Shown piece by piece: positions 5,063 to 10,887 of a stretch of DNA of 64,000 nt. Position 1 is the stretch's first letter, and every line of letters begins with the position of its first letter. The notes beneath the pieces are model-generated. The model had not been told where the DNA came from. It ran no database searches and saw only the letters and a program-made list of their open reading frames with translations. The DNA is from Bacteroidota bacterium (GTDB taxonomy: Bacteria; Bacteroidota; Bacteroidia; Chitinophagales; LD1). The translations under genes were made by a program, and so were the position numbers. The stretch is taken from assembly GCA_018267365.1 (NCBI GenBank), contig JAFDYQ010000001.1:248001-312000 (forward strand), written 5' to 3'.

Positions 5063-7909
5063 CTACTTACTCAGCATCATGCTCTTCTTCTTATACAGAT
5101 CACGGAAGTGCGGATCATAGAGGTCTTTGATAAAGTAGATGGCCTCACCGGTACTCTTCATCTCAGGGCCCAGCTCGCGTGATACGCCGGGGAACTTGTC
5201 GAATGAGAACACAGGCTCCTTGATGGCGTAGCCGATCAGGCGCTTGAAGTAGGTGAAGTCCTGTATCTTATTGACACCGAGCATCACCTTGGTCGCATAG
5301 TTGAGGTATGGTATGTCGTAGGCCTTGCAGATGAATGGCGTGGTGCGTGACGCACGAGGGTTGGCCTCTATCACATAGACCTTTTCATTCTTGATGGCAA
5401 ACTGGATATTGATCAGGCCGCGTATGTTGAGCGCGCGGGCTATTTTCTCCGTGTACTCGCGCATCAGCTGGATCACCTTCTCAGAGAGGTTGTATGGCGG
5501 GAGTACGGCGTTAGAGTCGCCGGAGTGGATACCTGCAGGCTCTATGTGCTCCATGATACCCATCACCTCTACCGTCTCACCATCGAATATCGCATCTACC
5601 TCTGCCTCCTCTGCACGATCGAGGAAGTGGTCTATCAGGATATTATTATCAGGGAAATGCTTTACGATCTTGAGGACTGATTTGGTCAGCTCCTCATCGT
5701 CTATCACGATACGCATGCGCTGGCCGCCGAGTACATACGATGGACGTACGAGTACCGGGTAGCCTATCTTATGTGCTACCTCGAGGGCATCCTCTGCATT
5801 CTTGGCAGCGCCATACTCAGGGTACGGGATATTAAGCGCCTTCAGCATATCGCTGAAGCGCTCGCGGTCCTCCGCAATATCCATGCTGTCATAGCTGGTG
5901 CCTATGATCTTGATGCCAGCCTCTTGCAGGTTCTTGGCGAGCTTCAGCGCTGTCTGGCCGCCCAGCTGCACGATCACACCCTCCGGCTTCTCATGCTCGA
6001 TCAGCTCGCGCAGGTGCTCCCAGAATACCGGCTCAAAGTAGAGCTTGTCTGCTATATCAAAGTCTGTGGATACGGTCTCAGGGTTACAGTTCAGCATGAT
6101 GGCCTCATAGCCTGCCTCCTTGATAGCCAGTACGCCGTGCACGCAGCAGTAGTCAAACTCGATGCCCTGGCCTATACGGTTGGGACCTGAGCCGAGTACG
6201 ATGACTTTTTTCTTTTGTGTAGACGGAGATTCATTGGTAGGCACATTGCCCCCCCCGGCTTCTGCTCCCTTCTCAAAGCTGGAGTAGTAGTATGGTGTCT
6301 GCGCCTGAAATTCTGCGGAGCAGGTGTCTACCAGCTTATAGATACGGCGGATGTTTTGGCCCTTAGTGCGGTGCTCATAGACTTCATCTTCTGTGGTAGA
6401 GGTCATGTAGGCTATCTGCAGGTCGGAGTAGCCTTTCTGCTTCAGCTCCAGCATGAGCTCTGCATCTATATCGTGCAGCTGTATCTTGCGGATCTTGCGC
6501 TCTGTCTCTACCAGGTCCATGATCTGGTGCAGGTACCAGGGGTCTATACGCGTGATATCCTGTATGGTCTTCAGCGGCACGCCGAGCTTCAGCGCATCAT
6601 ATATCCTGAAGATACGATCCCACGATGGCACCTTGATACCCTGCAGCATATTGTCTGCGCTCACCCAGGTCTTGCCGTCTGCGCCGAGGCCTATGCGGTT
6701 ATTCTCCAGTGACTGGCAGGCCTTCTGCAGTGCCTCCTGAAAGCTGCGACCTATGGCCATCACCTCTCCTACTGCCTTCATCTGCAGGCCCAGGCTATCA
6801 TCCGCGCCGAGAAATTTGTCGAAATTCCAGCGAGGTATTTTGACTATGGTGTAATCCAGCGCCGGCTCAAAGAATGCGGACGTCGTCTTGGTGATCTGGT
6901 TCTTCAGCTCATCCAGGTTGTAGCCTATGGCGAGCTTGGCAGCGATCTTTGCGATAGGATAGCCTGTCGCCTTAGAGGCCAGCGCAGAGGAGCGTGATAC
7001 ACGGGGGTTCATCTCTATGGAGATGATATCCTCTGTGACCGGATCTATGGCAAACTGTATATTGCAGCCTCCGGCAAAACTGCCGAGATCAGTGATCATC
7101 CTCTTGGCATATTCACGCATGCGCTGGTAGGCGGTATCGCTCAGCGTCATGGCGGGGGCCACGGTGATCGAGTCCCCGGTATGCACACCCATCGGGTCAA
7201 AGTTCTCTACGGTACAGATCACTACGAAATTGCCCACCGCATCCTTCATGACCTCCAGCTCATATTCCTTCCAGCCGAGAACGGCTTTCTCTATCAGCAC
7301 CTCATGTGTAGGGGAAGCATCCAGGCCGCGCTGCAGCTTCTCATCAAATTCCTCCTTGGTGTGTACGAAGCCGCCGCCTGCGCCACCTAGTGTATAAGAA
7401 GCCCGGATCACAAGCGGGAAGCCAATCTTTTGCGCAGCTTCTTTGCCCTCCAGAAAGGAATTGGCTGTAAAAGCAGGCGAAGTACCAATGCCAAGATCTA
7501 CCATCCACTTGCGGTATTCCTCCCGGTTTTCGGTCTTCTCTATCGCCTTGAAATCGGCGCCAAGAACGCGTACGTTATATTTCTCCCAGATGCCCAGCTC
7601 ATAGGCCTCCATGCACAGATTCAGCGCGGTCTGACCACCCATAGTAGGCAGTACGGCGTCTATCTTTTGCTCCTCCAGTATCTTGACCACTGACTGCACC
7701 GTGATAGGCAGCAGGTACACATGATCTGCGACCACCGGGTCGGTCATGATAGTAGCGGGATTGGAGTTGAGGAGGGTGACTTCTATGCCTTCTTCGCGGA
7801 GGCTGCGGGCTGCCTGAGAGCCGGAGTAGTCAAATTCGCAGGCTTGTCCTATAATGATGGGGCCGGAGCCGATGATGAGGACAGACTTGATCGAGGTGTC
7901 ACGTGGCAT
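5063..7909 (-). CDS. carB: Carbamoyl-phosphate synthase large subunit, lacking the MGS-like domain
   Basis: Makes carbamoyl phosphate from bicarbonate, ATP and glutamine-derived ammonia for pyrimidine and arginine synthesis. The 948 residues contain both ATP-grasp halves. The first begins VLIIGSGPIIIGQACEFDYS, the second around residue 570 with IVLGSGPNRIGQGIEFDY. Each half has its own NPR motif (EMNPRVSRSSALASKATG; EANPRASRTTPFICKAYD). The protein stops shortly after GPEMKSTGEA, so the roughly 130-residue C-terminal allosteric domain of E. coli CarB is missing. This shorter form is known in Bacteroidota. carA is not nearby. A near-consensus -7 box, TATTTTCG (7932-7925), lies 15 nt upstream of the ATG. 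Confidence 0.96.
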   Translation of the reverse strand: MPRDTSIKSVLIIGSGPIIIGQACEFDYSGSQAARSLREEGIEVTLLNSNPATIMTDPVVADHVYLLPITVQSVVKILEEQKIDAVLPTMGGQTALNLCMEAYELGIWEKYNVRVLGADFKAIEKTENREEYRKWMVDLGIGTSPAFTANSFLEGKEAAQKIGFPLVIRASYTLGGAGGGFVHTKEEFDEKLQRGLDASPTHEVLIEKAVLGWKEYELEVMKDAVGNFVVICTVENFDPMGVHTGDSITVAPAMTLSDTAYQRMREYAKRMITDLGSFAGGCNIQFAIDPVTEDIISIEMNPRVSRSSALASKATGYPIAKIAAKLAIGYNLDELKNQITKTTSAFFEPALDYTIVKIPRWNFDKFLGADDSLGLQMKAVGEVMAIGRSFQEALQKACQSLENNRIGLGADGKTWVSADNMLQGIKVPSWDRIFRIYDALKLGVPLKTIQDITRIDPWYLHQIMDLVETERKIRKIQLHDIDAELMLELKQKGYSDLQIAYMTSTTEDEVYEHRTKGQNIRRIYKLVDTCSAEFQAQTPYYYSSFEKGAEAGGGNVPTNESPSTQKKKVIVLGSGPNRIGQGIEFDYCCVHGVLAIKEAGYEAIMLNCNPETVSTDFDIADKLYFEPVFWEHLRELIEHEKPEGVIVQLGGQTALKLAKNLQEAGIKIIGTSYDSMDIAEDRERFSDMLKALNIPYPEYGAAKNAEDALEVAHKIGYPVLVRPSYVLGGQRMRIVIDDEELTKSVLKIVKHFPDNNILIDHFLDRAEEAEVDAIFDGETVEVMGIMEHIEPAGIHSGDSNAVLPPYNLSEKVIQLMREYTEKIARALNIRGLINIQFAIKNEKVYVIEANPRASRTTPFICKAYDIPYLNYATKVMLGVNKIQDFTYFKRLIGYAIKEPVFSFDKFPGVSRELGPEMKSTGEAIYFIKDLYDPHFRDLYKKKSMMLSK

Positions 7910-8120
7910 TCCGTATAATTTGCGCGAAAATAATAGAAATCTGAATTAATGCAGGATGAATGCATATATGGATAGCAGCTTTCGGCCCATAGGTTTTTAT
8001 CATACAGATAATCAATTAAATAGAATAATTTACACCTAAACTCTATCCATCCGCCAATCCAATTGTCATGGAATTGTCGTAACTGTTAATAAGCTGTAAT
8101 AAGCCCCAAAATAGAACGAC

Positions 8121-8546
8121 ATGAGTACCAAACGGATCACAAAGATACTACTAGCATGTGCAGGCATAGTGATAGTTCTCTCAGCAGCACTGGTGATACA
8201 TATAGCTGTCGTGAGCAGGCCAAAGGCAGATGCCTCTACAGTGGCCTTGGCACGGATAGACTTCAAACAAGATATCAATCAGGAGGATGCTGATCGGATC
8301 ACGAGCTGGCTATCTCAGCAGCCGGGAGTAGATCACGTGCTGTGCAACGCCTCTACTGAAACAGCGGTATTTTCCTTCTATCCCGTCAAAGCATCTGCCG
8401 ACCGTATAGCCGCTGACCTCAGGGACCAGCTGCACTACAATGGCGTGCGCTATGTACCGGACCAGAAAGCGCTCATGAGCGGCTGCCCGGTGAGCAATCA
8501 TTCCCTTAGCTATAAAATATATAGTACAATAAAACACCTTCTTTAA
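8121..8546 (+). CDS. Membrane-anchored small protein with HMA-like fold, no CxxC
   Basis: 141 residues, not recognised by name. An N-terminal hydrophobic helix (residues about 9-31) looks like a signal anchor. The following segment, ALARIDFKQDINQEDADRI through AVFSFYPVKASADRIAADL, has the beta-alpha-beta-beta-alpha-beta rhythm of ferredoxin-like heavy-metal-associated domains. The CxxC metal site of true HMA proteins is missing; the only cysteines are isolated (VLCNAS, SGCPVS). It is followed 29 nt later by a lipoprotein globin, so the two probably form an operon acting at the periplasmic face. The function is unknown; the fold call is from pattern only. Confidence 0.6.
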   Translation: MSTKRITKILLACAGIVIVLSAALVIHIAVVSRPKADASTVALARIDFKQDINQEDADRITSWLSQQPGVDHVLCNASTETAVFSFYPVKASADRIAADLRDQLHYNGVRYVPDQKALMSGCPVSNHSLSYKIYSTIKHLL

Positions 8547-8575
8547 TTTTTTCTAACTCCCGTAAAAAACTCCAA

Positions 8576-9097
8576 ATGAAAAAGACGATCACAAAGACCA
8601 GCATACTCACCGCACTGCTTTTAGCTGTCGTAGTACTGGCGCTCACTCCCACTATGCAGTCCTGCAAGAAGGACAATAACAACACCTCTGCTACCGCCAC
8701 GCTCTATGACTCACTGGGTGGTACTACGATGGTGAGTGACCCATCTCACTCCGGCACTATGATAGAGAAGGGCCGCCTGGGCATACGCTCGGTAGTAGAT
8801 AGTACGATCTTTGTGATCGCAGCAGATACAGCGCTGAACGGACACTTCACCGTACTGCTATCTGAGGTCACAGCCGGCAATACCAGCGGGCTCACGGCTC
8901 TGAGCAATAACCTGACAGACTTTTTCTGCTATGCTACAGGTGCACAGCACTTCACCTATACCGGCAAAAGCATGACAGCAGCCCACGATCCTGCTCAAAA
9001 CTCCCGCATGAACGGCAAGGCAGACAACCATGACTTTGATGTCTTCGTGGCTGATCTCGTGCAGGCGCTAATAAAGTGGGCCTTTCCAGCCAGCTGA
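8576..9097 (+). CDS. Lipoprotein-type group 1 truncated haemoglobin-like protein
   Basis: 173 residues. A lipoprotein signal ends at Cys30 in TPTMQSCKKD, so the mature protein should be lipid-anchored in the envelope. LYDSLGG (43-49) is the start signature of group 1 truncated globins, and FTYTGKSMTAAH places the proximal haem-ligand histidine at His137. DFDVFVADLVQALIKW fits the last helix. Two oddities stand out. About 18 extra residues are inserted between LYDSLGG and the B helix. The usual B10 tyrosine (VVDDFY in relatives) reads VVDSTI here, suggesting altered oxygen or NO chemistry. It follows the HMA-like membrane protein and is closed by a strong terminator at 9177. Confidence 0.75.
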   Translation: MKKTITKTSILTALLLAVVVLALTPTMQSCKKDNNNTSATATLYDSLGGTTMVSDPSHSGTMIEKGRLGIRSVVDSTIFVIAADTALNGHFTVLLSEVTAGNTSGLTALSNNLTDFFCYATGAQHFTYTGKSMTAAHDPAQNSRMNGKADNHDFDVFVADLVQALIKWAFPAS

Positions 9098-9176
9098 TAG
9101 GCCAGGTAGGCCGGGTGGTCAATACTACCCGCAGCCAGGTAGTACAGCAATAAGATCGCAGTAATTTTTTATAACC

Positions 9177-9209
9177 GCCCCCGGAGAATTGATCCGGGGG
9201 CTTTTTTTT
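9177..9209 (+). terminator. Rho-independent terminator of the globin operon
   Basis: GCCCCCGG (9177-9184) pairs with CCGGGGGC (9194-9201) over a 9-nt loop, followed by eight T residues. Confidence 0.9.
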
Positions 9210-9363: not shown

Positions 9364-10887
9364 ATGAAAAGAGATGGATTCAACGTGAGCCTCTGGCAGG
9401 GACGTCCGGCTTTTATCCCAAAAAATACTACCCTGCCTGCGGGTAAACAGGATGTGGTGATCGTAGGGGGTGGCATCACCGGCATCACCACAGCACTACA
9501 GCTACAGAAAGCGGGAAAAAAGTGTACGCTGATAGAAGCGCAGGAGATAGGATTTGGTACTACGGGCGGTACCACAGCGCATCTCAATACCATGATGGAC
9601 ACGCCGTACTATGAGATCAGGCAGAAGTTTAACAGCGAAGCCGCAGATAAGATAGCCCGCCTGAGCGAGAGCGCTATCACACTGATACGATCCAATGTAA
9701 AGGAATACGGCATAGACTGCTCTCTGAGCACTAAGCCCGGATATCTCTGTGCCAAAGATGATAAGCAGGCAGACCTGCTGGACAAAATACTGCAGAGCTG
9801 CCAGGAGGTGCATCTGCCGGCTACTTGTGCCACTAGTGTACCGACACCGACGCCATACATCAAGGCCATGCAGATACAAGAGCAGGCGCAGTTTCATCCC
9901 CTGGACTATATTTTAGCACTTGCGCAGCACTTTGAGGCGATAGGAGGTCATATCATACACGACTGCAGGATGACAGGATTTTCAGAAGAAGACAAGTTGC
10001 TGACGATACAAACATCTAAAGGCGACGTGAAGGCGGATGCTCTCATCTACGCTACACATATACCGCCGGGTGTGAACATGCTGCATTTCCTCTGTGCGCC
10101 CTATCGCACTTATGCCATAGCAGTGAAACTGAAAGGTGACAACTATCCTGATGCATTGATATATGACCTGGATGATCCGTACCACTATTTCCGCACTCAG
10201 GAGGTAGATGGAGAGCGCTACCTGATAGCTGGTGGCGAGGACCATAAGACCGGGCATGAAGAAAACACACATGAAAGATTCAAATGCCTGGAAGCGTATG
10301 TGAGGAAATATTACGATGTGGACCATGTAGCATACCAATGGTCCTCGCAATACTATGAGCCCGCAGATGGCCTGCCATATATCGGGCACCTGCCCGGTAA
10401 TCCCGACAATGTGTATGTAGCGACAGGCTTTGGTGGCAATGGGATGATATATGGTACAGCCTCGGCGGTGATACTGACGGCGCTCATCACAAAGGGAGAA
10501 AGTGAATATGGCACGCTGCTCTCGCCTGACCGTGTGAAACCGATGGCGAGCATGGGCAATGTGATGAAAGAAGGGGCTACTGTGACCAAGGATATGATCA
10601 CGGGCTGGCTATCCATACCAAAACTGGAAGAAGCAGCGGGACTCGCAAAAGGTGAAGCAAAAGTGGTAAAATACGAAGGAAAAACGGTGGCGCTATATAA
10701 AGACAACAACGGCGCGCTACATGCAGTCAATCCCGCCTGCCCTCATATCAAGTGCTCGGTAGGCTGGAACAATGCTGAGAAAAGCTGGGACTGCCCGTGC
10801 CACGGATCGCGTTTCTCCTATACAGGTGAACTGCTAACCGGGCCATCGAGCAGCGATCTGGAGAAGATAGACCTGAGGGAAGAATAG
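9364..10887 (+). CDS. FAD-dependent oxidoreductase fused to a C-terminal Rieske [2Fe-2S] domain
   Basis: 507 residues. A DAO-type FAD domain begins with the dinucleotide motif VVIVGGGITG (31-40) and continues with EAQEIGFGTTGGTTAHLN. The middle has YHYFRTQ and the DGLPYIGHLPG loop of glycine-oxidase-like enzymes. The last 100 residues form a Rieske domain with CPH at 459-461 and CPCH at 477-480 (CPHIKC...CPCHGSRF), so all four cluster ligands are present. Electrons probably pass between flavin and iron-sulfur cluster, but the substrate is unknown. No signal peptide is visible, so it should be cytoplasmic. It converges with the serine hydrolase gene with 2 nt between them. Confidence 0.9.
   Translation: MKRDGFNVSLWQGRPAFIPKNTTLPAGKQDVVIVGGGITGITTALQLQKAGKKCTLIEAQEIGFGTTGGTTAHLNTMMDTPYYEIRQKFNSEAADKIARLSESAITLIRSNVKEYGIDCSLSTKPGYLCAKDDKQADLLDKILQSCQEVHLPATCATSVPTPTPYIKAMQIQEQAQFHPLDYILALAQHFEAIGGHIIHDCRMTGFSEEDKLLTIQTSKGDVKADALIYATHIPPGVNMLHFLCAPYRTYAIAVKLKGDNYPDALIYDLDDPYHYFRTQEVDGERYLIAGGEDHKTGHEENTHERFKCLEAYVRKYYDVDHVAYQWSSQYYEPADGLPYIGHLPGNPDNVYVATGFGGNGMIYGTASAVILTALITKGESEYGTLLSPDRVKPMASMGNVMKEGATVTKDMITGWLSIPKLEEAAGLAKGEAKVVKYEGKTVALYKDNNGALHAVNPACPHIKCSVGWNNAEKSWDCPCHGSRFSYTGELLTGPSSSDLEKIDLREE

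Follow-up and report, generated by a model that had tools for sequence, protein, structure and literature searches.

A predicted lipoprotein truncated globin and its HMA-like membrane partner: a conserved gene pair behind a putative ECF-type promoter in Bacteroidota

The locus and its two proteins

The window, by which we mean the whole stretch of 64,000 nucleotides analysed, is part of a 4.6-Mb genome of 76 contigs. Two genes, ORF1 and ORF2, were found as the original prediction had placed them, adjacent on the plus strand with a gap of 29 nt, and the strong terminator described behind them does close the unit. That description overlooked a putative ECF-type promoter before ORF1 as well as an invariant Cys-Pro motif in the ORF1 product. 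The features of the locus are as follows.

5063-7909, minus strand: carbamoyl-phosphate synthase large-chain gene, flanking the pair on the ORF1 side
8056-8085, plus strand: putative ECF-type promoter (-35 AATCC at 8056-8060, 17-nt spacer, -10 CGTA at 8078-8081, then ACTG)
8121-8546, plus strand: ORF1, 141 aa, from the ORF call
8481-8492, plus strand: GCPV motif of ORF1, Cys and Pro invariant (35/35 and 33/33)
8576-9097, plus strand: ORF2 as read, 173 aa, from the ORF call, C-terminus altered by a frameshift
8663-8665, plus strand: lipobox Cys30 of ORF2, invariant in 38/38 ORF2 members
8723-8773 (limits approximate), plus strand: 17-residue insertion of ORF2 after LYDSLGG, from alignment with canonical-length relatives, with conserved D-P and G
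8984-8986, plus strand: proximal His137 (F8) of ORF2, in 38/38 insertion-type members and 9/9 other TrHb1
9061-9062, plus strand: site of a 1-nt deletion (frameshift), from DNA alignment with three same-genus relatives and three-frame translation
9062-9153, plus strand: conserved coding stretch for the ORF2 C-terminus, now in another frame, with its stop codon TAA at 9151-9153
9177-9209, plus strand: intrinsic terminator (stem 9177-9201, 9-bp stem, 7-nt loop, T8)
9364-10887, plus strand: FAD-dependent oxidoreductase with C-terminal Rieske domain, directly past the terminator

The FAD/Rieske oxidoreductase was observed to adjoin the pair within the genus only. The reading frame originally given for ORF2 was sound as far as the deletion site, which had gone unnoticed, and its C-terminus was not. 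The three same-genus relatives encode proteins of 191-192 residues with the C-terminus ...GLSSQLIGQVGRVVNTTRSQVVQQ; because of the 1-nt deletion, residues 163-173 of the listed ORF2 are foreign to the family, and the 30 residues with which family members end are missing. The out-of-frame C-terminus was recovered as a separate profile match (G000:C11:257061-257150, E 1e-8). The deletion may be genuine or may have arisen in the assembly. Outside the frameshifted end the window pair is under strong purifying selection, with within-genus values of dN 0.08-0.09 and dS 1.2-1.6 for the ORF2 globin core and dN 0.16-0.18 and dS 1.0-1.5 for ORF1.

Profile comparison of the ORF2 family (A4) with the PDB recovered the Tetrahymena truncated haemoglobin 3aq7 (E 9.2e-9, over the E-H region) and hhalign matched the family to nine other TrHb1 sequences at 99.8% (E 7e-29), so that ORF2 is predicted to be a divergent, lipid-anchored member of the group 1 truncated haemoglobins, the type originally proposed, by an assignment that rests on profiles and not on structure. 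Searches with Pfam and NCBIfam returned no globin match for ORF2, and PF01152 matched none of the 38 ORF2 members at E<=1, which we regard as a detection limit rather than as a defining feature of the family. An AlphaFold model made from a 4-row alignment only had a pLDDT of 41.6. Both the lipoprotein signal at Cys30 and the proximal histidine claimed for the window copy proved to be invariant across the family, and Tyr128, Gly130, Met133 and Arg144 were each present in 38/38 members of the alignment. The original prediction had also described an 18-residue insertion after LYDSLGG; an insertion does stand there, but it measures 17 residues in the alignment, and a second one of about 7 residues directly past His137 had not been reported. 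Two further truncated globins above the Pfam cut-off, L001 (G000:C10) and L002 (G000:C55), were observed in the window's genome, neither with an evident lipoprotein signal.

The B10, E7 and E11 places of ORF2 were carried over from alignment with the Tetrahymena protein, in which these positions have the B10, E7 and E11 roles. At B10 the family has Ile in 32 and Leu in 6 of the 38 members (Ile78 in the window copy, in agreement with the claim that the B10 tyrosine is missing), at E7 Leu in 38/38, and at E11 Leu in 32 and Phe in 6 (n=38); the distal side is therefore apolar. A polar distal pocket of Tyr B10 with Gln at E7/E11 is usual, if not universal, in group 1 truncated haemoglobins and is absent from the ORF2 family. 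Since 7 of the 9 other TrHb1 of the alignment also have Ile at B10, this residue is common to other exported relatives. ORF2 is proposed to bind haem with His F8 as its ligand, in a pocket that is unusually apolar. No match to the ORF2 globin was found on the plasmids searched.

ORF1 is predicted to be a single-pass membrane protein with an HMA-type fold that lacks the HMA metal site, much as first proposed. A single hydrophobic segment covers residues about 9-31, with a nearly invariant His at its outer end, and the invariant Cys-Pro lies near the C-terminus. The ORF1 family (A5) profile matched PDB HMA domains (2.7e-10 summed; 1cpz 4.4e-4), copper ATPase domains among them, and in the model residues 42-104 follow a ferredoxin-like beta-alpha-beta-beta-alpha-beta order with block pLDDT values of about 65-81. 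Foldseek with this model gave MerP 1osd as the best match (prob 1.00, TMt 0.76, E 0.035); its matches also included the YAM domain of YajR, which we take to have no metal site. CxxC was present in none of the 35 ORF1 homologues. The window ORF1 fell below the PF00403 cut-off (14.9 bits vs 24.8), and when PF00403 was run against the 35 members, 9 gave E < 1, the best being 0.0036.

Conservation of the pair

Using profiles built from the genus, we found globin matches in 42/396 genomes of the order, and 38 of these 42 hold the insertion-type globin. ORF1 lies directly upstream on the same strand in 37/38 insertion-type genomes, those of G178 and G286 having been detected in follow-up inspection only. 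The exception (G240) has a decayed globin fragment of 93 residues (L101:8053-8349) at the groES-nusB place. The remaining four globins, including those of G315 and G378, are of canonical length. ORF1 without the globin was limited in the order to a single weak match inside a 798-residue frame (G166). In the phylum survey 22/395 genomes matched the globin, 14 with the insertion type, and ORF1 stood upstream in 14/14. The ORF1 profile, run against 296 phylum genomes, gave 14 strong matches (E 3e-25 or better), all adjoining the globin; weaker matches began at E 2.5e-7, and the ten inspected were ordinary HMA proteins with CxxC or CxxC-like motifs. The pair is a conserved two-gene module and not a chance reading, and these counts uphold the original suggestion of a conserved, unnamed envelope module; the absence of the pair from all other genomes, named at the outset as grounds for refutation, is clearly contradicted. 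A single-protein search in a small family (f1; 5/30 and 4/30 genomes) had limited the pair to the genus, a view that was overturned by the profile searches of order and phylum. A scan of named genomes with signal-peptide patterns matched only the same-genus MAGs Bacteroidetes bacterium UBA1941, SZAS-56 and SZAS-58.

Canonical-length exported globins without the insertions were also found behind a small membrane protein ending in Cys-Pro at L125, L107 and L106. The upstream proteins of L125 and L107 are weak ORF1-profile matches (E 9e-6 and 3e-9), and that of L106 was recognised by eye. These cases suggest that the canonical-length pair is an older form of the insertion-type pair. At L107 (G296) the canonical-length pair lies between groES and nusB, the place taken by the insertion-type pair at L078, L080 and L081, as if one pair type had there replaced or given rise to the other; the GroES/NusB setting seen in some genomes is itself housekeeping synteny. 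Seven other distant globins of the phylum survey (L126-L132) had no ORF1-like partner by profile. No third constant partner gene was found near the pair in a scan of 121 neighbours of 32 loci, which considered proteins of 80 to 1200 residues and left aside the decayed fragment L101, the near-duplicates L076, L093, L095, L096, L098, L103 and L104, and the window.

A putative promoter common to the pair and oxidative-repair genes

The element AAWCC-N16/17-CGTAnnT upstream of ORF1 (at G000:C11:256056-256085 in the window's genome) is a predicted ECF-type promoter, AAWCC-spacer-CGTA being an arrangement of the kind read by ECF sigma factors. A sigma-70 promoter scan gave no convincing match. A relaxed form of the motif was found in 47 of 49 ORF1 upstream regions (L107, with no anchor for its start, was left out), with a spacing of 16 in 34 and of 17 in 13, and T occupied the third base past CGTA at 46 of the 47 sites, though it had not been a selection criterion. 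Before ORF1 genes the relaxed motif occurred in 34/36 cases, against 22/776 for other ORFs of the same loci; wrong spacings gave 0-3/36 and the reversed motif 4/36.

The same motif was found before MsrB genes (14/30, p 7e-13), MsrA genes (8/30, p 5e-6), fasciclin genes (5/6, p 2e-7) and ECF sigma genes (6/32, p 5e-4), Fisher p values which overstate independence because many of the sequences are close relatives; the Msr genes were sampled as 30 of 53 MsrB and 30 of 50 MsrA matches, and the six fasciclin genes were taken from the surroundings of the pair or of ECF/RskA genes and do not make up a genome-wide set. With the motif before only 6 of 32 ECF genes, autoregulation is not general. The motif was rare before globin starts (2/41) and RskA genes (1/34). 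Most of the Msr genes examined start with a signal sequence. In the window's genome the motif stands before the pair and is absent before the one MsrB and the one MsrA examined (L220, L268). An attempt to define a genome-wide regulon with a strict motif was too noisy, matches in 5 genomes not rising above the reversed control. Two MsrB lipoprotein-type genes (L163:3352-3873 and L168:6086-6604) were observed beside an ECF/RskA/fasciclin set with the pair's promoter motif 52-55 nt upstream, and at L073 (G250:C1) the pair is immediately preceded, on the same strand, by an MsrA gene whose product starts with a signal sequence.

A gene for an RskA_C anti-sigma factor was present in 34 copies in 32 genomes and is thus near single-copy. 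Together with its ECF gene it lay no more than two genes away from the pair in 7/32 genomes from 5 genera, placed downstream, upstream divergent or convergent, compared with about 0.03 genomes expected by chance under a rough simple model. RskA was carried by 31/32 pair carriers and 15/34 non-carriers, a contrast partly explained by kinship since most non-carriers without RskA belong to family f1 (RskA absent in 15/19, vs 4/15 in the other two families). Its presence in 15/34 non-carriers means that RskA must serve other genes too. The test set was composed without the window's own genome, and the same-genus genome G021 has RskA. In carriers the ECF sigma gene adjoins RskA, and the RskA-linked ECF factor is the candidate reader of the pair's promoter.

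Comparison with known systems and possible function

ORF2 shares with group 1 truncated haemoglobins (TrHb1/HbN, PF01152; Tetrahymena 3aq5-3aq9, cyanoglobin 1s69) the LGG start motif, the Y-G-M block and the proximal His. It differs from them in being a predicted lipoprotein with 17- and about 7-residue insertions and apolar B10, E7 and E11 residues, in lying below Pfam detection and in having an obligate partner gene. ORF1 in turn resembles HMA metallochaperone domains (MerP 1osd, CopZ, ATP7B) in its beta-alpha-beta-beta-alpha order and fold match, but it has no CxxC in the 35 members and carries an N-terminal membrane anchor and an invariant C-terminal Cys-Pro. Peroxidase activity and a link to oxidative stress have been described for one truncated haemoglobin (PMC4319818). 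Truncated haemoglobin domains are exported and fused to multihaem cytochromes in cable bacteria, according to PMC11976967; on that account ORF2 would be alike in its place outside the cytoplasm and would differ in having no cytochrome fusion, being instead a lipoprotein with a separate HMA-like partner.

For the regulon the comparison is with SigK/RskA of Mycobacterium, a system also studied in Yersinia, whose regulon includes the FAS1 proteins MPB70/MPB83. Control of FAS1 proteins by SigK and RskA in mycobacteria is described in PMC10540498, and the presence of SigK/RskA in several genera in PMC7509140. The likeness consists in an ECF gene with an RskA_C anti-sigma factor, a fasciclin target and a small regulon; the host, in contrast, belongs to Bacteroidota, MsrA/B and the globin pair are among the targets, and the likeness is set by gene content and not by ECF group or promoter match. 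The components are divergent forms of known families. No published description of the pair or of its regulon was found in the open-access literature searched, and to that extent their combination is new.

With moderate confidence we read the pair, a haem protein and its membrane partner, as a single transcription unit that an ECF sigma factor controls in response to oxidative damage at the envelope. The promoter common to the MsrA/MsrB, fasciclin and ECF genes points to envelope oxidative damage rather than to NO in particular. Envelope oxidation would free the ECF factor, and Msr repair, fasciclin and the ORF1-ORF2 pair would be switched on. The exported, lipid-anchored ORF2, with haem on His F8, would then encounter reactive oxygen, similar oxidants or products of these at the membrane, and ORF1, seated in the inner membrane with its HMA-type domain outside, would serve the globin. 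Its Cys-Pro and membrane-end His would most simply deliver haem to the globin or keep that haem reduced. The sigma link, haem binding, the choice of oxidant and the role given to ORF1 are the conjectural parts of this scheme. Counting against this reading are the apolar ORF2 pocket, without the polar distal residues that peroxidases usually have, the frameshift of the window copy, the poor structure model of the globin, the missing motif before the MsrB and MsrA examined in the window's genome, the failure of the strict motif to exceed its reversed control, the low count of the motif before ECF genes and the presence of RskA in non-carriers.

The invariant Cys-Pro of ORF1 (35/35) with its near-invariant His, the HMA fold without a metal CxxC, the apolar pocket with His F8 kept and the strict pairing would also suit a haem relay or sequestration system, in which ORF1 picks up haem at the inner membrane and passes it to, or removes it from, a globin that stores or hides it, and oxidative-stress control would follow from free haem being itself an oxidant. 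We think this unlikely, as no recurring haem-uptake or haem-synthesis family stood among the 25 commonest neighbour families (TonB-receptor Plug made up 3/121 neighbours) and CP motifs occur also without haem. A phylum-wide haem relay, in which an ORF1 Cys-Pro haem ligand replacing CxxC charges the apolar-pocket globin under SigK/RskA-like sigma control with Msr and fasciclin, is in our estimate doubtful without being negligible. NO chemistry is a known property of group 1 truncated haemoglobins, and an apolar pocket would be expected to favour NO or CO over O2; a module for NO or reactive nitrogen, as originally suggested, whose globin would bind NO at the envelope or convert it there, is nevertheless quite unlikely, given that the B10 Tyr and distal Gln which support O2-dependent NO dioxygenation are absent from the ORF2 family, that none of the 25 commonest neighbour families, out of 149, is a denitrification family and that the regulon partners are Msr and fasciclin.

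The globin might also have lost haem binding and kept a degenerate fold, serving in the envelope as a structural or binding component. A rebuilt distal pocket, two insertions, the failure of the Pfam globin model in all 38 members and the lack of a usable fold model (pLDDT 41.6, 4 rows) fit this idea, which we judge very unlikely in the face of strong purifying selection and of an invariant His F8 (38/38) with its neighbouring Tyr, Gly and Met (38/38). We hold it highly improbable that the globin is a haem-based detector informing the ECF/anti-sigma pair of oxidants or gas: the pair does lie near ECF/RskA genes in 7/32 genomes, but it is located elsewhere in 25/32 and itself bears the target promoter.

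Both proteins lie below detection by the Pfam and NCBIfam models searched and would probably be annotated as hypothetical, and yet ORF1 and ORF2 stay side by side both inside the window's class and outside it. Should the envelope oxidative-damage reading be true, Bacteroidota would possess a defined response to envelope oxidation under sigma-factor control, an apolar-pocket globin would join the proteins active outside the cytoplasm, and the HMA fold would be found with a possible haem site.
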